The notes beneath the pieces are model-generated. The model saw nothing but the letters and a program-made list of their open reading frames with translations, was not told the DNA's origin and did no database searches. The translations under genes were made by a program, and so were the position numbers. A stretch of DNA of 64,000 nt from Nigrospora sphaerica (taxonomy: Eukaryota; Ascomycota; Sordariomycetes; Amphisphaeriales; Apiosporaceae). The DNA lies in contig JAGVVL010000027.1 of the NCBI GenBank assembly GCA_018287875.1, forward strand, positions 806,001-870,000, read 5' to 3'. Shown here piece after piece: positions 41,098 through 61,899 of this stretch. Positions within the stretch are counted from its first letter, which is position 1, and the number at the start of each line of letters is the position of its first letter.

Positions 41098-43148
41098 ATG
41101 CCGAGATCGCGTGGTTTAGAGTTCTTGCCATTGTTGTGTGGTCACGCACCATGGTACGTGCGACTTGCTGACTTTATTCCTTCAGACCAACCTTTCGCCA
41201 CGCGCTTCCGAGAGTTCGAGATCGCTAGGATGTCGTCTCCTAGAGTTCAGCTTAGTCCTACGCCGGATCGAGATTTCAAGAACGTCGTTCCAGCTCCTGG
41301 TGCCAAGTTCTTCATTTCCAGCGCCAAAGGCTAATCTGTCCGTTGGTTCGAGGTCGAGGTAGAGAACCCAGAGCCCTGCCTTGCCTGCATCAAATCCGTG
41401 GCCGCTGGGAAAGGTGACGGCGTCTGCTGGAGCCTTCTCAATGAGTCCCGATGCAAGAGATGCGTCAACGGTGGGAGATGCGATGAGGCGTGAGTTTTCC
41501 GGTTTCTTTGCATCTCGGGCTTGTGCTGACTTCTCCTAGCTCGCCCGTCTTACTCTTGACCTTCAATAGGGTCAGGGACCATGCTTCTCGGTTCTCTAGG
41601 AGTGCATCAACCGCAGAGTACTGGAATCTCGTTGCCAGGCAGGCTCGTGCCGAGGAGCGTGCAATCAAAGCCAAACAACGGCTTAAGATCAATCCCGAGC
41701 TTCGGAACTATTGGTCTTCCATTACTGTCTTCGGAGACCACGAGAAGAGTATCATTCGATGGAACTTTCCAGAGTTCAAGAAACATGGGAACCTCTCGAC
41801 GTCGGGTGACCCTCTCGCGGTCTCCAATGCACTCGCTCCTGCCCAGGGAGTTCCGGGAAAGCCTCTCAAGCGAGTACATCCAGTCCTGGTCCAGTCTCCC
41901 GGCGGGGACGTCCCTGGAGAATCTCGATCCTTTCCAGTGGACCTCTCCACCTGTTTTAACGTCCCGTCGGGAGTTGGTCAAAAGAGGCCCATTCCCAACG
42001 GCAGTGAGGTCTCGCAGTCGAAACTCTTGAAGCTGGAGAAGATCAGAGATACGGTTTCAGAGGAACACCTTGACGTTTTTCTTGAGTTCCTCAAGCGGAG
42101 GCCTCTTCCTCAATCTTCCGGGCCCGACCCTTCGAGCAGTTCCCAGGGTGGTGAAACCGCCCGCAAATCTCTACCCAGCTCTCGGATTAAAGAGTTTGTC
42201 CGTTCTTCTCCTCCTATTAGAGAACAAGATGCGCCCTATCATCTACAGGAGACAGTTCAACACGTGTTTTCGTATCCCTTGGCGATATACAACCTCGAAA
42301 CCCCCCAACCTGGTCTCCAGAGCTCGTTCATGGGACCTCCCGCCGCTCAAACCAAAGCCAAGGCTTCCTTCTCTCAGAAACTGATTAAGAAGAAGGCCTC
42401 CGAAGTTGTGGCTTCTAAGGAGCCATAAGATGTGGTAGATCTCCTGCACATGTCTAGTGAGGGTACCTCCGAAAATCTGGACCTCAGTAAGGACGATCAT
42501 TCAGATCCGGGCGAGGACCTGGAGGACTTTGTTGTGCAAGGGATCTCTGATCTCGAGACCGAGCGCGCTGAAGTTTTGGGCCTGCGCGAGTACAACAAGA
42601 TCCGTACGCAACGCCAGTCTCAACGAAGAACTCATCTTCAGGGGGTGACGCCTGAACTTGAGAGAGGTATCGCGGATCTCCCTGAGTCCGAACGTCGTAA
42701 GATTGGCTTGTCGAAAGTTCCTGCGCCTTTTGTGGCGTCTCGCCGGTGTTCGTGTGTTCCTGCCTCCTCCCTAGCGCCCGTCTCTGCGGCTTCGGTCACA
42801 GTCGAGGCTCCCTTTCCTCCTGAGATCCCGTCCGCATCCGAAACTCCAGTCGCCGCTCAAAACCCGAATGAGCCCAAGGCTTCCGTGATCTCTAGAGTCC
42901 CTGCCGTCGCTTCGGGCTTGGGGACTGCTGCAAATACCGCTTCAACTGATGCTCTTCGCCGACCTCGCGCTGCGATTGGGGTGCCTGAAACTCCGGTGGG
43001 GCGAGAGAATCGGGCGCGTCTCGCCGGTGTACGCATTCTCGCCTGAGAGAAGCTTTTTGAGATCGGTCTAAAGCTCATGGTCGCGACGGAGAATGACATC
43101 GACGAGTTGTATGACGAGGCCAAGGCACTTAAGGCCCGGATTGGCTGA
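41098..43148 (+). pseudogene. TE-linked cysteine-motif protein, three in-frame stops
   Basis: A long frame split only by TAA 41332-41334, TAA 42426-42428 and TGA 43044-43046. Each could derive from CAA, CAA and CGA by C-to-T change. An intron at 41490-41539 (donor GTGAGT, TGCTGAC branch point, CTAG acceptor) joins in frame. Just before it lies a cysteine module PCLACIK...C...RCKRCVNGGRC, spaced C-x2-C-x12-C-x8-C-x2-C-x5-C. The rest is Ser/Pro/Glu-rich with a basic, possibly coiled segment (ARQARAEERAIKAKQRLK), ending at TGA 43146-43148. Function unknown. The spacing resembles the antisense gene inside the chromovirus (59761-60668), and it lies divergent from Copia gag. The upstream start is uncertain. 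Confidence 0.55.
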
Positions 43149-52184: not shown

Positions 52185-52690
52185 CTATCTCTCCCACGTA
52201 GCTGAGTCCATTCGCGACGAACTAGTCGTCGATCTCGAGTCCCGCGTTCCGGGTTTGCCCGATGCCCGGATCCCCTGCGTCGTAATATCCGTTAAAAGTC
52301 CCCCGCGACGACACGGTGGGGTGGCGGTTTCAGAGCTGGGAGGAGTCGTGTCGCCCGGCTTAGCGGCTCGTCCGGGGGGTCTGTATACGTTAATGAAGGG
52401 GAAGTGGTCGATCTCGGGCCATGGAGGATCTCTGGTCTGCCATGGCCTCTCCAATCTTGTCTTTAGCCTGCTGTCTTTCCGGACGTAGGTTATGGCGCGG
52501 GGCTGGGCGGAAGTGCTGTCCCGGTGGTCGACCGGGACGTAAGCGCTGTAGCTTGCCTGGGTGCGGGTTAAATCGGTTCCGGCCATCGTTCGTGACGGAT
52601 GGTTCCTGCGCGAGCACCACGTCTACGTGGTCCTCCCAGCATTGTTTTAGTAAGGCCGTGTGTGCCGGTGGCGATTTGCCTACGTTATTA
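52185..52690 (-). mobile_element. Tad1-type LINE endonuclease fragment
   Basis: On the minus strand, two shifted frames give NVGKSPPAHTALL, DVVLAQEPSV and then YSAYVPVD, PRAITYVRKD and FINVYRPP. These are the order and motifs of the apurinic-type endonuclease domain at the start of Tad1-like ORF2. The catalytic QEP segment is seen. No reverse transcriptase follows. It lies against the 5' edge of the broken rhamnosidase and appears to have truncated it. Confidence 0.65.
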
Positions 52691-52694
52691 GCCT

Positions 52695-54464
52695 CGATAG
52701 GGCGGCGTGGGAACGTCTCCTTTTGCACGGAGGGGGCGAGGCCCTGGTGCTCCCCGCCGGCTCCGAGCACCAGTTGGATCTCGAGATAGCGGTGCACACG
52801 ACGGCCTTCATCCGTTACCGCTTTTCCAGGGCGGGCGCCGAGGGAAGCGTCTTGCGCGTAGTCTACTCGGAAGCCTACGAGGACACCACGACGCTCGTTC
52901 CGTACCTCCGTCGCAAGGGGGACCGAAGAGACACGGCCAAGTCCCTTCTAGAGCCCTCGGATACGTACTGGCTGGAAGGCCCACGCAACGAACCGCGCCA
53001 CTGTGACGACGAGGAAGAGGACGAGGTCTACACGCCCTTCCATTTCCGGACCTTTCGCTTCCTCCGCGTCAGCCTAAAGGTCGGTGCTTCCGATCTGGTG
53101 CTCCGAGGGTTCCAAGTCGAACCCGTCAGCTATCCGCTCGATGTCCAAGCGAGGATTGAGTGCCCGGACGAAGACGTCAAGCTCTGGGACACGAGCATTC
53201 GCACGTTGCGGAACTGCATGCACGACTGCTACGAGGACTGTCCCTTCTACGAGCAGCTGCAGTATGCCATGGACACCCGAAGCTCCATCTTATTCACGTA
53301 CCGCCTCTCCAGCGACGACCGTCTGGCCCGCCAGGCTATCATCCAGCTGCACAACTCGTTCCAGCCGCGCCTTGGCCTCACGGCTAGCCGGGCGCCCTTG
53401 CACACGCCTCAGGTCATTCCTAACTCCTCGCTCTTCTGGGTTTGCATGGTGGCCGACCATTACGAGCACAACGGCGACGCCGCGTTCCTCGCGCCCTTCT
53501 CGCACGTCGTCGACGCCGTCCTGGGCTACTTTTGGTCACGGCTCGGCCCGCTCGGCCTGGTCGTCAACGACTCCGGGCCGGGCCTCTGGAACTTTACCGA
53601 CTGGGCGGACGCGTGGCGTCCGTACGGAATCCCCCCGCCGTGGAGCGCACGGGGATATCGACGTACACCAACTGCCTCTACGCGTACGCGCTCCGGCACG
53701 CCGCGACGGTGGCGGCTGCCACTGGTCGCGAGGCGTTGGCCTAGGAGTATCTGCACCGAGCGAAGCGCGTCGTGAGCGCCGTGAGGGACCACTGCTTCGA
53801 CGGCCGGTTCTTCGCCGACAGCGTAGCCGCTCATGCCGACGAGGACACCGACTACAGTCAGATGGCGCAGGCGTGGGCTATACTGGGCGGCGCCGTGTGC
53901 GATACGGACGCCCAAGCCCTCATGCGGAGAACCCTCGACCCGTCCCGCGGCCGACCCTTGGTCGGCAGCTCCATCTCCATGTCCTTCTACACGCTGAGAG
54001 CCCTCAGCGCAGCGGGGGGGTCCGTGTACAGCGACTTGTTCGGCCGGTTCTGGGACCCCTGGCGCGCACAGCTAGCGCTCAACGTGACGACGTGGGAGGA
54101 AGACGACGTTTCGCAGCGCTCCGACTGCCACGCTTGGGGGAGCGCGCCAATTTACGAGTTCACGGCCGAGGTGGCCGGGATCCGGCCGGGCGGGCCTGGC
54201 TGGTCGTCCGTCGTATTTGCGCCGCGTGTCTGGCTCTACCGCACGTTTCGTGCAAGCTGCCCGATGCGCATGGCCGGTGGGGAGCTCACGGGCATGGCTC
54301 AGGCATCCTGGTTCGAGGCTGAGAGCGGCGAAACGGAAATCTCCCTGCGATTCGACATGAAACTAGAAAAGGCCATCCCCGTTCACGTTCAGGTGCCGAC
54401 ACAGGACGATAGCATCATGGACACAACGCGCGAAATCGTGCTGCGCGTGAAGAGGCGCGAGTAG
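52695..54464 (+). pseudogene. second GH78-like alpha-L-rhamnosidase, truncated and broken
   Basis: Homology begins abruptly at about 52695 beside the LINE fragment, so the N-terminal domain is missing. The frame runs through SVLRVVYSEAYED, YTPFHFRTFRFLRV and the conserved barrel entrance CYEDCPFYEQLQYAMDTR (catalytic region) to FTDWADAWRPYGIPP. At the C run near 53629 it shifts by one base to VERTGISTYTNCLYAYAL. TAG at 53742-53744 follows, then the same frame continues through DYSQMAQAWAILGG, SDCHAWGSAPIYEF and the beta-sandwich to 54464. One frameshift, one stop and 5' loss make it a pseudogene. It is only distantly like the intact enzyme at 44791-47338. Confidence 0.75.
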
Positions 54465-54677
54465 AACGCAATGAACGGTAAATAGACGGAGGCGTTGCCG
54501 GGATGATTTGCAAAATCACGTTCTGAAGTATGAGGGTCGCTAATTAGCCCATCATCTTTGCTTTTTGATGGCCAGGCCCATGACGGCCTCTACCTGTGTC
54601 CTCTTTGCACTAGAAAAGCGCAGACGACGAGCGGAATAGGTACGGTCATCGCTACGTTATTGAAACGAATTGGCGCC

Positions 54678-54939
54678 TGTCAGAGACACAACTGGAAAGG
54701 ACTCGGATCCAGGACAAAGGATAAATGGAAGATCTCAGAGCAAGGCCCTCAACAGGAAAACTGGCGAGGCAACGGACAGGTAGCGGCAGGCTACAAATAA
54801 GGGGCAACAGGCCCAGCAGATGGATAGAAGGACAGAGATTAATGCCATTCAACCTCTACCCCTACCTACTCCCTCGCCATAAGCTTCGACAGTACCTACG
54901 TGCCCCTTCTTGCCTATACTCCAAGGGCCCCCTCTGACA
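54678..54939 (+). repeat. 5' LTR of the chromovirus
   Basis: 262 bp, starts TGTCAGAGAC and ends CCTCTGACA. The gag ATG lies only 17 bp after it, at 54957, so the leader and any primer-binding site are very short, as in self-priming Tf1-like elements. Confidence 0.95.
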
Positions 54940-54956
54940 CGTTAATCTCTCAATCT

Positions 54957-57900
54957 ATGACGGAGACATCTCAAGAACCGCACCAGGACTGTCGAAACAT
55001 ACCGCGAGAGATGCCACCTAGCAGCAACTCAGAAGCTCCCCCTACAACGGAAGACGGAACCTCCCCGGGAATCTGTATGGACATCATAGAGGACCTTTCT
55101 GAGGCGGAGCTAGATCGTAGGATCTTAGCCATAAAGAAGACGAGAACGCTCAAAAGAAAACGCGAGGAACTGAAGGCCTTACAAAGGGGAGAAAGCCCCC
55201 CAGGAGACACCCAGACCTCAACTAGTTCGCGGGAACCTAGCCCGAAACGCATGAAAACCTCGGATTGGGGTAAACTCACCTACAAGGGAGGAACCAAGGG
55301 GGACCTACACCGGTTCCTATTTCAAGTCAAGGCTCGATTCGACAATGTCAGCGACCTATCCACAGACCTACAGAAGGTAGCATGGGTTACCAGCTGCCTA
55401 GAAGGACCTGTGGAACGAAGATGGATCTCCCAGGTCCGAACCACCTACCAGGACAACATCAAAACAGTGACCTGGGAAAACATGGAAAACTGGCTCAAAA
55501 GAAGAGCAGGAGAAGGAGAAGACCGAAGCTACGACGCGACCTCGAAGTTACGTCGTATGTACCAACGACCATGGGAGAAATTCGACGACTTCCTTAACCG
55601 ATGGGAAGAAACAGAAATGGAAGTAGTGGACATCCTCCCAGAGAGCCTACAGGTAGCTCACCTGTTAGCAGCCATGACGGGAAGACTTCGAGACACTATT
55701 GCTCTCAAAGGGATCCCAAAAACCAGGGAAGAATTGATCCTCGAAGCTCAGAGGGTGGAAGTGCTGCTAGGACCCCGCGACCGGTCCGTGGACAGAGACA
55801 GCACTCAAACCTCTCAACGAAACCACTATCAGACATTAGACCCACGGCAACCCAGCAGCGAAGCAGCCGCCAACCGGAAAGACGAGTGTCTCAAATGCGG
55901 CAAACCACACCACCCCACTTCGCGATGCCCAGACATCCAGTGTTACCAATGTAAAGAGATGGGGCACATCTCACCCTTCTGCCCAAAGCGCCGGACCCAA
56001 GACACCGACAAACCGCGAGCCAGCCGTGCACAATAGGGAGACCCAAAGCCGAAGTGCCGACTTGAGACCAATATTGAGGTCCAAGTTGATGGCCAATGGG
56101 TGACATTCAAAGCACTAATAGATTCAGGGGCCGACATCAACCTAATTAACAGAAGGAAGATAGCCCATACAAAGACACGAGTCACCGGCAACCCAACGGC
56201 TATCGAAGGAGAGTTCGGAGGAAAGACAATCACCGTGGGCACCACCGAACTAGATACCACTATCACCGACCCTCAAGGAACCATAAGGAAACAACAACAT
56301 ACCTTCGAGGTAGCGGACACAGACACCTGGGACATCATCCTAGGACTACCATGGCTTGAGAAAGCCAACCCGAAAATACTAAACTGGAAAACTAAGACAT
56401 GGAGGCATGAGATCTGCAAGGATACCTTCGAACTATGCACGACTAGGAAGCAGGTTAGAAGGGCACAACGAACCTCGAGACATGTCCTTACTCTCAGAAA
56501 ACAAACAACAAAACCCGAAATCCCAAAGGAATATGAGGACTACATCGATGTGTTCGACATAGAAAAAGCCCCAACCCTCCCTGACCACCATGGGCTAGAA
56601 CACACCATCGACCTAGAAGCAGGCAAGCAACCACCATGGGGACCACTCTATAATCTCGCAGAATCAGAACAACAAACGCTGAGAGAATACCTAGACGACG
56701 CCCTAGCTAAAGGATGGATTCGAAGCTCCAGGAGCCCAGCAGGAGCAGGAGTCCTATTCGTCCCAAAAAAGAATGGCAAGCTCAGACTCTGTGTGGACTA
56801 TAGGGGTCTCAACAGGATAACTATCAAAAACCGAGCCTCCCTCCCCCTCCTCAGCGAAACCCTAGACCGCTTAGGAAAGGCGAGGATCTGGACCAAATTC
56901 GACCTGAAAGACGCGTACCACCGAATACGTATCAGACAGGGCGACGAATGGAAGACAGCTTTCAGAACCAAATACGGACACTTCGAATATCTCGTCATGC
57001 CATTCGGTCTCACCAATGCACCAGCTACCTTCCAGACATACATTAACACAGCACTGACAGGACTGATTGACGTTATCTGTGTCGTCTACCTTGACGATAT
57101 CCTCATCTTCAGCAACAATATGGAAGAACACAAACTACATGTCAGAAGCATCCTCGACAGATTAAGAGAATGGAAGTTGTATGCCAACGTGGATAAGTGT
57201 TATTTCCACCAGACCGAAGTAGGGTACCTGGGGTTTCGCGTCTCACAAGCCGGCATCTCCATGGAAGAAGAAAAGATCCTAGCTATCAAGGAATGGCCTA
57301 CACCAAAGACGATACAGGAGATCCAAACCTTCCTAGGATTCACGGGGTTCTACCGGCGGTTTATCAGGGGGTACGCCAGGATCACGAAACCCCTAACCGA
57401 TCGACTACGACAAACCGGCCCAAAGCAATTCACCCCATCCATCGAAGAGGAAGCAGCAACACAGCAGCTAAAACAACAATTCATTGGCGCCCCTGTGCTC
57501 CGCCATTTCAATCCAGAACTACCCACCAGGATCGAGACAGACGCTTCCAACTGGGCCATCGGTGCAGTTATCTCCCAGAAAGAAGACGGCAGGTGGAAAC
57601 CTGTAGCCTTCAGATCCAGAAAACTCCAAGGACCAGAGCTAAACTACAGCACCCCGGACGGGGAACTACTAGGTATCGTCGATGCTTTTCAAGCCTGGAG
57701 ACATTATTTAGCCTATAGCAAAGATACAGTAACCATCATCACAGATCACCTAAACCACCGCTACCTCTCCACCAAGTCGACGCTTACCAGCAGACAAGTG
57801 AACTGGCTACAACAACTAGAACCTTTCAACTACGAAATCATTTTCCGCCCTGGGAAAGAAAACCCTGCAGACGGACTTTCAAGGAGGCCAGACTACGAAG

Positions 57901-59707
57901 ACCAACCTGGCAGACAAGAAGCAAGGCAGACGCTAATTCCCGGCTTTGAAAAGAAATTCAAAGACCCATCTAAGCGAGAGCTTGAAGAACTAGGGACCCA
58001 CAGGCATGAGCCGCCGGGCACCCAGAAGTTAGCAGTTGAGAAAGCAGAGGGAGCAGCCGAGCGAAAGCTTGAGGGCACCCAGAGAAACATAAAGGGAGCA
58101 GCCGAGCATGAGCTTGAGGGCACCCAGAAGACAACCCAGGGCACAGCTGAGCATGAGCTTGAAAGCACCCGAAAGGTGGAAGCAGCCAGAGTACGCGTCG
58201 TCTCGAAAACCCAGATCCAAGAGAGACACAAATAGACGTTTAACGGAAACGACCTCGAAGCAGCTATTCAAAAGGCTCAAGGGGAAGACGAATTCGTGAG
58301 ACAACGCAAATGGAGACGACTGAAGACAACAAGAGGAACAAAGTGGACAACGGACGGAAACAACCTACTCTTAAGAAACGGAGCCACTTACGTCCCGGAC
58401 AGACACCCCATCACTCGAGACATCCTAAAACTATGCCACGACGAACCAGCGGCAGGGCACCTGGGGAGGGAGAAAACACTTAGCAGGATCAGGAAGAACT
58501 TCTTTTGGAACACCCAACGGAAAGATGTCCTAAACTACGTCAAAACCTGCACTAGCTGCCAGAGAGGCAAAGCAAGGCATCATCGACCCTACGGCGAACT
58601 CATGACATTACCCATACCCTCCAGACCATTCCAGGAAATCTCCCTTGACTTCATTACCGGAATCCCAGAATGCCAGACTCCTAGCGGCAAGGTCGACGCT
58701 ATCCTAGTGATTGTGGACAGACTCACCAAATACGCGCAATACATACCAACCAGAAAAGACGCCACCGCAAGGACATTCGCTGAGATCTTCCTAGATACCA
58801 TCTTCCGAAGGTTCGGCCTACCAGAAGGTATAGTATCGGACAGAGGATCCCTATTCACCAGCAAATTCTGGGAAACCATGTGCCGTTCCCTAGGAACACA
58901 GAGAAAACTAAGCACGGCATACCACCCCCAAACGGATGGACAGACGGAAAGGATGAACCAGCAACTGGAACACTATCTGCGAACCTACTGCTGCTACGAA
59001 CAAACAGATTGGGCCGAGAAACTAGGAATGGCCGAATGGACCTACAACACATCGGAACATAAATCACACGGCAAATCACCAGCGTACCTCCTGCTAGGAT
59101 ACGACCCAAAAGGTCCCACGGGGATAGCACACACGGAACCCGGCTCAGAAGAAGCAATTGAAAGAACCACCAGGATACGAGAAGACAGGAAGGCAGCCGC
59201 AAGCCTCCTAGAGAAATCAAATCAAGCCCATGCAAAATGGTATAACAAAAAAGAAAACCCATGGATTTCGAGGTGGGATCTGAGGTCCTCATATCAGCAA
59301 AACACATCAACCAACAAAGACCAAGCCGAAAGCTCGCGGATAAGTACCTAGGCCCGTTCCGCATAACAAAAAGGATTAACGGCATGGCCTTTGAGGTGAA
59401 ACTCCCGGACCAATACAAGATCCACAACACCTTCCCTATCAGCCACCTAGAAGCCTACCATCGGAGGAACGGAGAAGACCCCATGGAACAAGACGTCCAA
59501 CCAGAGGAAGACACCATATATGAGGTAGAAAGAATCCTCAGACAAAGAGGAAAAGGACAGAAAACACAATACCTCATACAGTGGAAAGGATGGACCGAAG
59601 AACACAACTCATGGGAACCTCGAGCCAACGTGGGACTAGAGGCAATCCAGGAGTTCGAAGAAGGACAGCGACAGAAGGAATCCCAGGGCCAGAAGTTTCT
59701 CAATTAA
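54957..59707 (+). pseudogene. chromovirus gag-pol: one frame split by two TAGs and a late frameshift
   Basis: Gag (54957-56036) has a capsid-like core and two CCHC knuckles (CLKCGKPHHPTSRC and CYQCKEMGHISPFC). TAG 56034-56036 is followed in the same frame by protease (DSGAD), reverse transcriptase (YLDDILIF) and RNase H (TDASNWAIGA). A second TAG sits at 58233-58235. The same frame then gives the integrase HHCC finger (H...H...CTSCQ), core LDFITG / SDRGSLFTS / GQTERMNQQLE, up to an A-run at 59247-59252. There one missing A moves the frame to the integrase tail and a chromodomain (YEVERIL, YLIQWKGWTEEHNSWEP), ending at 59707. Both TAGs could be CAG mutations or readthrough sites. The copy may depend on helpers. 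Confidence 0.85.
58053..58187 (+). repeat. three 45-bp repeats in the RNase H-integrase linker
   Basis: Three 15-codon units starting at 58053, 58098 and 58143, with consensus near AAEHELEGTQK. A more diverged unit precedes them. They form a charged linker between RNase H and integrase. Confidence 0.75.
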
Positions 59708-59760
59708 GGAAAAACCAGGAGAAAGACCGCGAAACAACAGCGGCGAGGGGGGCACAGAGA

Positions 59761-60668
59761 TTAGCCAGCGGCCACGCCCTTGCCGGTCTCCTTCGCGGTA
59801 CCGACGGCATCCTCCTCCTCGTCCTCCTCCCCCTCTTCCTCCTCCTCCAACTCCCCCAACTCCTGGTCCTCGACGTCGGTGTCGGCGACGGCATCGCGGG
59901 TCTACAGCAGCGAGTAAGCGGCGAACTAGTAGACGACAGAAAAGAATACTCACGACAACGCGGTAAATCTCCAAGGCATCCTTGGAGGCACCGGCAATAG
60001 CCTCAAGGGCAGCGGCAAGGCGGCGAGTCTCCTGGATGAGGGTTTGTTGGCCCTCCCACAAACCCGCGACGGCGTCGGTGAGCCTCTCCTCGCGCTCGAA
60101 GCGAGCTTCCTGCATCTCCGCCTCGGCTGCGGCGGTATCCTCTTTAGCCTTCGAGGCAGAACGAGACTTGGCGTTCTTATTGCCCTGAAGGGACTTCTTG
60201 GCCAGGAGCTGCTGCTTCACGACCTCAGCCTGGAAAGAGGTTAGCAGCGACCTACTAAGCTGGCGGGAAAACAGGAAACATACAGGATCAACACCAGCCT
60301 TCTGCATAGCCTTGTGCAGAGTCTTCAGCACCTGCTTGTTGGCAATGCCCGAGACCTACCGGCGACTTAGCGGCGACCCCAAGAGGGGAACCAAGCAGAC
60401 TCACATCGGCGCAGGGCTTGCCCAGCTTCTGGCAGTAGTCGCACTTAACAGAGGCAGCTAGCAACCGGTTAGCACCCAGCGACCCAGCGGCGACCCTGCG
60501 GCAGCACCCACAATCGTTGTCCTCACAAAGAGAAGGAGCACCATCATCCTTCGACCACGCCACCAGGCGGGCGGCACAGCGACAGCAGGGCAGCTTGCGC
60601 ACACCCGTGACCTCGGGATCGGCCCTGGTCGCCTTCTTCTTGCCTACCCTGGGACGGGGGGGGGCCAT
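59761..60668 (-). CDS. five-exon antisense gene carried inside the chromovirus (cysteine module, coiled coil, acidic tail)
   Basis: Exons (minus) 60512-60668, 60405-60457, 60284-60355, 59954-60229 and 59761-59901 total 699 bases, 232 residues, every junction in frame. Introns 60458-60511, 60356-60404, 60230-60283 and 59902-59953 are GT-AG with TGCTAAC, CGCTAAG or CTTAC branch points. ATG 60668 has a good context (ATCATGGCC). The basic start PRPRVGKKKATR is followed by a cysteine module (PCCRC...C...KCDYCQKLGKPC). A Lys/Ala/Glu helical, probably coiled-coil region comes next (EAEMQEARFEREERL, LIQETRRLAAALEAI), then a Glu/Asp-rich tail. The function is unknown. Position inside the LTRs means it moves with the element; antisense introns would not be removed from the genomic transcript. 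A similar cysteine spacing occurs at 41098-43148. Confidence 0.8.
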
Positions 60669-61233
60669 GATGGTTATGTGACTACTAAGAAGCGAGTCAG
60701 CGTCGCCCCAGTGGTGGCCAAGATGCGAGAGAAAAAACGAACTCACGAAATGTTCAATTAGAACTGAAGACACCAACAAATCAGCAAAACCGCCACTCAA
60801 AACAACCCAGGACTCCAAGGACTCACTGTTAGATCAAGGTATCTGCGGCGAACTGTCAGCAACCAAGAAAACACCAAAAGGAACCAGGAGAAGAGCACAT
60901 ACCGACTGAAAATAAGCCTGCTGAAAGGGAAGACAGTTAGCAGAGGGGTCGACAGGAACCGCTGACCAGAGCACCTACAAAACAAAGCTTAAAGGTCTGA
61001 AGAAAAGAAGAGGAAGAAGAGAACTGACAGGACCGAAGATCTATTTATCCAAAAAAAACCAGGAGCACCAAAATGCCTCAAGAACAACAATCGAAATCAC
61101 AATAACCAGCACCTACTAACTACCTCACCACATATTAACTACACAATCAACGATGGAACAATAAGGAAGCAGAACAATGAACAATGGGAGAACAATGAAC
61201 AAAAGAGACCCCTGCAGAAGCAACAACCAAAGA

Positions 61234-61447
61234 GGACACCACGAACCACCAGCGAGGAAGCGGAACATAAAGGGAATCCAATAGAGTACATTGTTTTCTG
61301 AAATCCTATGGTAAAAGCCTAAGATTTCATAAAAAATTACCTAATGGGGACACCACGAACCACCAGCAAGGAAGCGGACCACAAAGGGAACCTGATAGGT
61401 TACATTGTTCTGAAATCCTATGGTAAAAGCCTAGTATATCATAAAAA
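61234..61447 (+). repeat. two-copy 114-bp tandem repeat in the 3' region of the chromovirus
   Basis: Copy 1 starts at 61234 and copy 2 at 61348, both beginning GGACACCACGAACCACCAGC and sharing GAAATCCTATGGTAAAAGCC. They differ at scattered positions. They lie between the antisense gene's promoter side and the 3' LTR, so they could serve either transcript. Confidence 0.8.
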
Positions 61448-61511
61448 CAATCGACCCAGGCCACCTGACACCGAAACTACCTACCGGCTGCATTGTAGGA
61501 ACAATGCCATC

Positions 61512-61523
61512 GAAGAGGGGAAA
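61512..61523 (+). other. polypurine tract of the chromovirus
   Basis: GAAGAGGGGAAA, three bases before the 3' LTR: the expected plus-strand primer site for reverse transcription. Confidence 0.7.
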
Positions 61524-61526
61524 CCA

Positions 61527-61788
61527 TGTCAGAGACACAACTGGAAAGGACTCGGATCCAGGACAAAGGATAAATGGAAGATCTCAGAGCAAGGCCCTCA
61601 ACAGGAAAACTGGCGAGGCAACGGACAGGTAGCGGCAGGCTACAAATAAGGGGCAACAGGCCCAGCAGATGGATAGAAGGACAGAGATTAATGCCATTCA
61701 ACCTCTACCCCTACCTACTCCCTCGCCATAAGCTTCGACAGTACCTACGTGCCCCTTCTTGCCTATACTCCAAGGGCCCCCTCTGACA
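61527..61788 (+). repeat. 3' LTR of the chromovirus
   Basis: 262 bp; no difference from the 5' LTR was found by eye. Followed by the GCGCC target duplication at 61789-61793. Confidence 0.95.
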
Positions 61789-61899
61789 GCGCCGAGCGAA
61801 GATCTGCTACTACCTACCCGAGGGTGAGTTCGTGAAACTTGTTAGACCAAGCCACTTGCGGCGTCACAGGCCCTCTTTCATACCGCATGTGCAAATCCT

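Follow-up and report, generated by a model that had tools for sequence, protein, structure and literature searches.

An intron-rich antisense gene in a chromovirus of Nigrospora sphaerica

We found that a Ty3/gypsy chromovirus at positions 54678-61788 of a 64,000-nucleotide stretch of Nigrospora sphaerica DNA (contig JAGVVL010000027.1; the whole stretch is called the window here) carries an antisense gene between pol and its 3' long terminal repeat (LTR). We also found that another chromovirus lineage of this genome bears antisense genes at the same place and on the same strand, which is a new finding. The window gene runs from 60668 to 59761. As the initial annotation had proposed, it has five coding exons, which sum to 699 nucleotides (nt) including the stop and encode 232 amino acids (aa), and all four coding introns have GT..AG ends. 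The coding frame is antisense to gag-pol and lies between pol and the 3' LTR, the arrangement of an antisense accessory open reading frame (ORF) of the aORF-3R kind. The parts of the gene and of its candidate 5' leader are listed here; the second copy is another full copy of the element, described below.

61042..61047 (about), minus strand: TATA-like stretch upstream of leader intron A; putative promoter
60921..60978, minus strand: candidate 5' leader intron A by the intron rule; kept in the second copy
60843..60902, minus strand: candidate 5' leader intron B by the intron rule; kept in the second copy
60764..60826, minus strand: candidate 5' leader intron C by the intron rule; kept in the second copy
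60685..60746, minus strand: candidate 5' leader intron D by the intron rule; kept in the second copy
60512..60668, minus strand: coding exon 1; ATG, basic N-terminus, C28, C29, C31 and C48
60458..60511, minus strand: intron 1; 54 nt, no in-frame stop
60405..60457, minus strand: coding exon 2; C58, C61 and C68
60356..60404, minus strand: intron 2; 49 nt
60284..60355, minus strand: coding exon 3; part of the 232-aa frame
60230..60283, minus strand: intron 3; 54 nt, no in-frame stop
59954..60229, minus strand: coding exon 4; charged, coiled-coil-like as judged by eye
59902..59953, minus strand: intron 4; 52 nt
59761..59901, minus strand: coding exon 5; acidic tail and stop codon

We counted non-overlapping introns by one rule (length 45-90 nt, with a GTRNGT donor, a branch-like site, and YAG) and used 1000 dinucleotide shuffles as controls. 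The antisense strand has eight such introns and the sense strand has none; the shuffles averaged 0.2, and 0 of 1000 reached eight. No other finding speaks as strongly for an antisense transcript as this difference between the strands. The four introns within the coding part were likewise reached by 0 of 1000 shuffles. A spliced ORF of 699 nt was not found in any of 200 dinucleotide shuffles, the largest of which gave 602 nt. From these sequence patterns, we consider the antisense gene confirmed, with a predicted transcription unit that is spliced and extends upstream of the ATG. The candidate leader exons between introns A and D are 16-18 nt each. The TATA-like stretch is followed by CT-rich DNA and differs by one base in the second copy.

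The gene model is not unique. The longest spliced path from the same ATG has 809 nt and two introns. Because introns 1 and 3 are both 54 nt and stop-free, the frame forces only introns 2 and 4; by our reading of the frames, introns 1 and 3 are probably the two retained in the 809-nt path. Retention of both gives a longer protein. Removal of intron 1 yields C48-x9-C58, the same spacing as C49-x9-C59 in the class-A protein L053 (see below), which favors splicing. As a separate observation, the 3' halves of five introns (59902-59953, 60230-60283, 60356-60404, 60458-60511, and 60843-60902, all on the minus strand) share a theme near the branch-like site. It reads like TCGCCGCT or TCGCTGCT, as if the introns were related.

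Antisense genes in other chromoviruses of the genome

We searched the N. sphaerica assembly (51.6 Mb, 33 contigs) for related elements and took the 3' parts of seven loci from 110 scored (of 199 candidate) integrase matches. In two of the seven, L053 and L056, an antisense frame without introns lies past pol, and its protein starts with MSGRIEK; we call genes of this kind class A. In their proteins, a cysteine module is followed by a charged helical segment and then by an acidic tail. Zn2Cys6 (PF00172) is a DNA-binding domain of transcription regulators with the spacing C-x2-C-x6-C-x5..12-C-x2-C-x6..8-C. The L053 cysteines are spaced C-x2-C-x6-C-x9-C-x2-C-x7-C, which is Zn2Cys6-like.

The L053 protein has 14 matches in the genome, and 11 of these have an integrase match on the opposite strand 500-647 bp away. 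The corresponding distance in the window element is about 500 bp, counted from integrase residue 342. No integrase was found near the remaining 3 of the 14 among the 110 scored of 199 candidates. Class-A proteins keep their cysteines, and the ratio of nonsynonymous to synonymous substitution rates (dN/dS) is <1 between lineages. L053 has 127 database relatives, and all those with a species name are from Sordariomycetes. Matches to PF00172 are weak and were obtained for 18 of 70 members, and the precomputed Pfam annotation is empty for all 120 listed relatives.

We also searched for structural likeness. A PDB sequence search with the class profile gave 11 matches up to an E value of 10, the best of which (0.022, to TAL-effector repeats) we took as chance. 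Foldseek against PDB gave two matches (best E value, 8.7), and a structural match to HAP1 was weak and was seen only among the 12 chains examined.

In four other loci of the seven, the class-A gene was not recognized; in two of them, L050 and L052, antisense frames of 105-141 aa follow pol. The remaining locus, L051, is of a third kind. This chromovirus (G000:C10:1435900-1440400) has long, GC-rich antisense frames of 408, 257, 125, and 121 aa past pol (L051 1613-4433, minus strand). They have no Pfam domain, and their openness varies among copies. The family has twelve integrase matches of equal score. The 408-aa frame has 42 matching pieces in the genome; three others share 98% identity with it and are open along their entire length. 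We found no LTR pair of an L051-type element in the stretches examined.

The window protein is a plausible relative of class A

The window protein has a basic N-terminus, a cysteine module, a charged helix that looks coiled-coil-like by eye, and an acidic tail. The gene model bears out the cysteine module and acidic tail proposed earlier, with the coiled coil resting on visual judgment. The cysteines are spaced C-x2-C-x16-C-x9-C-x2-C-x6-C, with an enlarged first loop. A role related to nucleic acids is the best reading of this architecture. The only Pfam match of the protein, to WH_GTF3C1_N, had an E value of 0.039 and was discarded as falling below the cutoff. A database protein search gave 2 of 2907 candidates at an E value of ≤0.01, with 82% identity over 44% and 64% identity over 39% of the query. 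These two resemble close relatives read without splicing; their number is too small for a selection test. A module with a similarly enlarged first loop (C-x2-C-x12-C-x8-C-x2-C-x5-C) lies elsewhere in the window, at 41377-41481 on the plus strand. It occurs once in the genome, in a broken gene, and is adjoined on the opposite strand by a frame that we guess to be gag-like.

The window gene agrees with class A in position, strand, and architecture: it is antisense past the chromodomain and encodes a basic end, cysteines, a helix (by eye), and an acidic tail in the same order. It differs from the intronless MSGRIEK-like frame in being split and in having a different start. Profile comparison with hhalign aligned 45 columns, placing five of the six class cysteines on window cysteines and aligning a G-(L/I)-x-x-x-Q stretch. 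The score was 24.7. One of 150 full shuffles (33.9) and one of 150 cysteine-fixed shuffles (26.0) scored at least as high; the reversed protein scored 18.5. The E values, each for a single comparison, were 0.002 and 0.005, and the probabilities were 14% (31 columns, smaller profile) and 7%.

In an integrase tree of 20 rows, nine of them class A, the window element grouped with L024, L043, L022, L035, and L042 (95/92), apart from class A. The class-A rows themselves did not form one undivided group. The class-A gene was not recognized in three of the five neighboring types, those with 3' parts examined. The window protein may be a divergent, intron-rich relative of class A, and a common origin is plausible.

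A second copy keeps the antisense frame

A second full copy of the element (G000:C13:4296781-4303890) is 98.5% identical to the window copy over 7,114 aligned columns. Both of its LTRs have the same four differences from the window LTRs, and its target duplication is GGATA. We found that this copy retains the antisense frame, each of the eight introns, and every cysteine. A genome search found the antisense stretch in full nowhere but in these two copies, and its six remaining matches are short and of low complexity; LTR matches in the genome listing number 36. The two copies differ at 109 positions, 87 of them transitions, and the stops in pol of the second copy are of the repeat-induced point mutation type.

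We compared the two copies by pN/pS, the ratio of nonsynonymous to synonymous differences, excluding codons that are stops in either copy. The ratio was 0.12 for gag, 0.08 for the protease-reverse transcriptase-RNase H frame, and 0.06 for integrase. Compared with gag-pol, the antisense gene has a much higher nonsynonymous rate (P = 1.5e-5) and a similar synonymous rate (P = 0.83). Divergence is about equal in exons (2.7%) and introns (2.4%).

A self-encoded regulator is the favored reading

We tentatively favor the reading, to which we give somewhat less than an even chance, that the element encodes its own nuclear, dimerizing DNA-binding regulator of transcription in an antisense unit akin to class A. 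This reading is drawn from architecture and from analogy with Grande gene23, Retand, and HBZ (discussed below). According to this model, a promoter near 61040 would drive an antisense unit of four leader introns and the five-exon gene. Reverse transcription uses the sense RNA as its template, where these segments do not act as introns, so the introns would persist in the element; this logic, put forward in the initial annotation, is supported. The protein would enter the nucleus and dimerize through its coiled coil, its zinc-cluster-like cysteine module would bind zinc and DNA, and its acidic tail would contact the transcription machinery. It could thereby adjust transcription from the LTR or from its own promoter, and the element would limit or time its own expression. 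A broader version, which we regard as possible though doubtful, is that chromoviruses of filamentous fungi commonly carry antisense miniature zinc-cluster/coiled-coil regulators past the chromodomain, which would be a so far undescribed protein class. The window gene would then be an extreme, host-like eight-intron form with a microexon leader, able to persist solely through its antisense orientation, and its two in-frame stop-free introns could give alternative isoforms.

Several results weigh against a regulator. The cysteine spacing of the window protein is not that of Zn2Cys6, and a Pfam search gave no PF00172 match; the sixth class cysteine is one residue off in the profile alignment. The initial annotation had made conservation of the frame in other copies a test of the gene. 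The one further full copy that we found has an intact frame, but the 7 synonymous and 12 nonsynonymous changes give a pN/pS of 0.52; tested against neutrality, this is not a significant reduction (binomial P = 0.13; Fisher P = 0.17). The joined exons shifted by one base also give 0.52, and shifted by two bases they give 2.63. These figures, from two copies, are compatible with weak constraint on the protein, with fast evolution, and with no constraint.

The protein might instead act in the replication cycle, binding element nucleic acid or integrase and aiding nuclear entry or target choice. A basic N-terminus with a cysteine module suits nucleic acid binding, the class-A distance to integrase is nearly constant, and PMC7264820 discusses such a role for antisense ORFs. 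PF00172 is nevertheless the Pfam family most often matched by class-A members, if weakly, and the putative promoter suits expression separate from gag-pol. We consider a replication factor unlikely.

We judge it quite unlikely that the antisense RNA is what matters rather than the protein, with the spliced transcript pairing with genomic RNA and feeding RNA silencing or blocking sense transcription. A coding pattern indistinguishable from neutral between the two copies and the equal ratio in the shifted frame would fit this idea, as would the complementarity of the gene to sense RNA, and the idea is raised in PMC7264820. Yet the frame is open in both copies, class-A proteins show retained cysteines and a dN/dS of <1 between lineages, and splicing takes away part of the complementarity.

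The initial annotation had described the gene as a passenger, and it seems improbable that it is a recently captured host gene carried neutrally. Its host-type introns and promoter-like region, its occurrence in only two copies, and the weak or absent constraint would be expected of a passenger. The term is doubtful because other chromoviruses of this genome have antisense genes at the same position. A homologue search, also proposed in that annotation, gave the two database matches above and none in this genome outside the two elements, all nine matches lying within them. Finally, there is a very small chance that no gene exists and that a spacer holds open frames and splice-like sites by coincidence. 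The lack of transcript evidence and the non-unique model with its stop-free introns 1 and 3 speak for this; the shuffle results, the eight introns on one strand against none on the other, and the frame kept in the second copy speak against it.

The host element and its surroundings

The window element is a young, recently inserted chromovirus, with identical LTRs and a 5-bp target duplication. The matched LTRs and Pfam domains agree with the earlier placement of the gene in a chromovirus, between pol and the 3' LTR: reverse transcriptase, RNase H, integrase, and then a chromodomain all lie between the LTRs.

54673..54677 (left) and 61789-61793 (right): 5-bp target-site duplication GCGCC in the flanks
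54678..54939, plus strand: 5' LTR; 262 bp, 100% match to 61527-61788
54957..56036, plus strand: gag ORF; two zinc-knuckle-like stretches, TAG end before the pol frame
56037..58235, plus strand: protease, reverse transcriptase, and RNase H frame; PF00078, PF17917, and PF17919; TAG end
58236..59351, plus strand: integrase frame; PF17921 and PF00665
59246..59707, plus strand: SH3-like domain and chromodomain; PF24626 and PF00385
61527..61788, plus strand: 3' LTR; 262 bp, paired with the 5' LTR

A Pfam search of the gag ORF gave no match, and protease matches were weak. Neither copy is fully intact, since the chromodomain frame differs from that of the integrase core in the window copy and pol of the second copy has in-frame stops. 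A TAG at 56034-56036 parts gag from pol, and another at 58233-58235 parts RNase H from integrase; both sites are identical in the two copies. The integrase frame downstream of the second TAG keeps its low pN/pS, which suggests stop readthrough or bypass. The LTR has three CGG triplets on the plus strand and no CCG, and we claim no binding site. At 61229-61447, with the putative antisense promoter region on one side and the 3' LTR on the other, lies an imperfect two-fold direct repeat with a spacing of 112-114 bp. Upstream of the element, at 52654-54464, is a gene-like frame broken in two around 53650-53775. It is possibly a decayed glycosidase-like gene, a name guessed from sequence.

Comparison with known systems

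The brtn antisense gene of Boty-like elements was reportedly described by Zhao et al. in Virology in 2011. Several papers place brtn between pol and the 3' LTR in Botrytis cinerea (PMC8365987, PMC7264820, and PMC4227169) and describe antisense genes at this site in plants and, among fungi, in Boty of B. cinerea and Sclerotinia sclerotiorum (also PMC5987419). The initial annotation's statement that no fungal case had been described was therefore wrong. By these descriptions, Boty is like the window element in being fungal, with a chromodomain in gag-pol and an additional gene in antisense orientation between pol and the 3' LTR. In the window gene, two introns or more are required, and there are eight good candidates.

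HBZ of human T-cell leukemia virus type 1 (HTLV-1) is a spliced antisense gene near the 3' LTR that encodes a coiled-coil nuclear regulator. HTLV-1 is a retrovirus of people, and HBZ is a bZIP protein, not a cysteine cluster protein. We liken HBZ to the window protein by arrangement only and claim no homology. PMC7264820 mentions an antisense promoter located in the 3' LTR of HTLV. In plants, maize Grande gene23 has a promoter of its own and its product is nuclear, and Retand TRP28 is predicted to bind DNA (PMC7264820 and PMC11963269). Grande gene23 and the RIRE2/Retand ORFs are, like the window gene, antisense between pol and the 3' LTR. They differ in their plant hosts and in that Retand belongs to a non-chromovirus lineage, and no cysteine cluster is described for them in the text available.

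A literature search, with subscription papers mostly outside its coverage, found no other fungal LTR-element antisense gene and no report of an intron-rich one or of class A; antisense transposon long noncoding RNAs are reported in Blumeria (PMC10648671, in part). For Pyricularia locus tags, it found no publications. Some "hypothetical proteins" in Pyricularia, Fusarium, Cordyceps, and other fungi may find their explanation in this class. The function of plant retrotransposon antisense accessory genes is stated as not known in PMC7264820. A regulator-like class that sits at one place in several copies, with relatives in many fungi, makes this question testable. The intron-rich form offers a clean case of an RNA-copied element keeping introns.

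Zn2Cys6-type regulators dominate fungal gene control. If the favored reading of a self-encoded regulator is true, fungal elements would bring their own regulators of this dominant type. The antisense proteins resemble Zn(II)2Cys6 regulators such as HAP1 and Gal4 in having a cysteine cluster followed by a putative coiled coil, and L053 does so in its cysteine spacing as well. They differ in that Pfam annotation is empty for all 120 listed class-A relatives, the first loop is enlarged in the window protein, and the proteins are small, at about 200 aa. We conclude that the general kind of gene is known from plants and Boty and that the window gene is an unusually intron-rich example that apparently belongs to a wider set.
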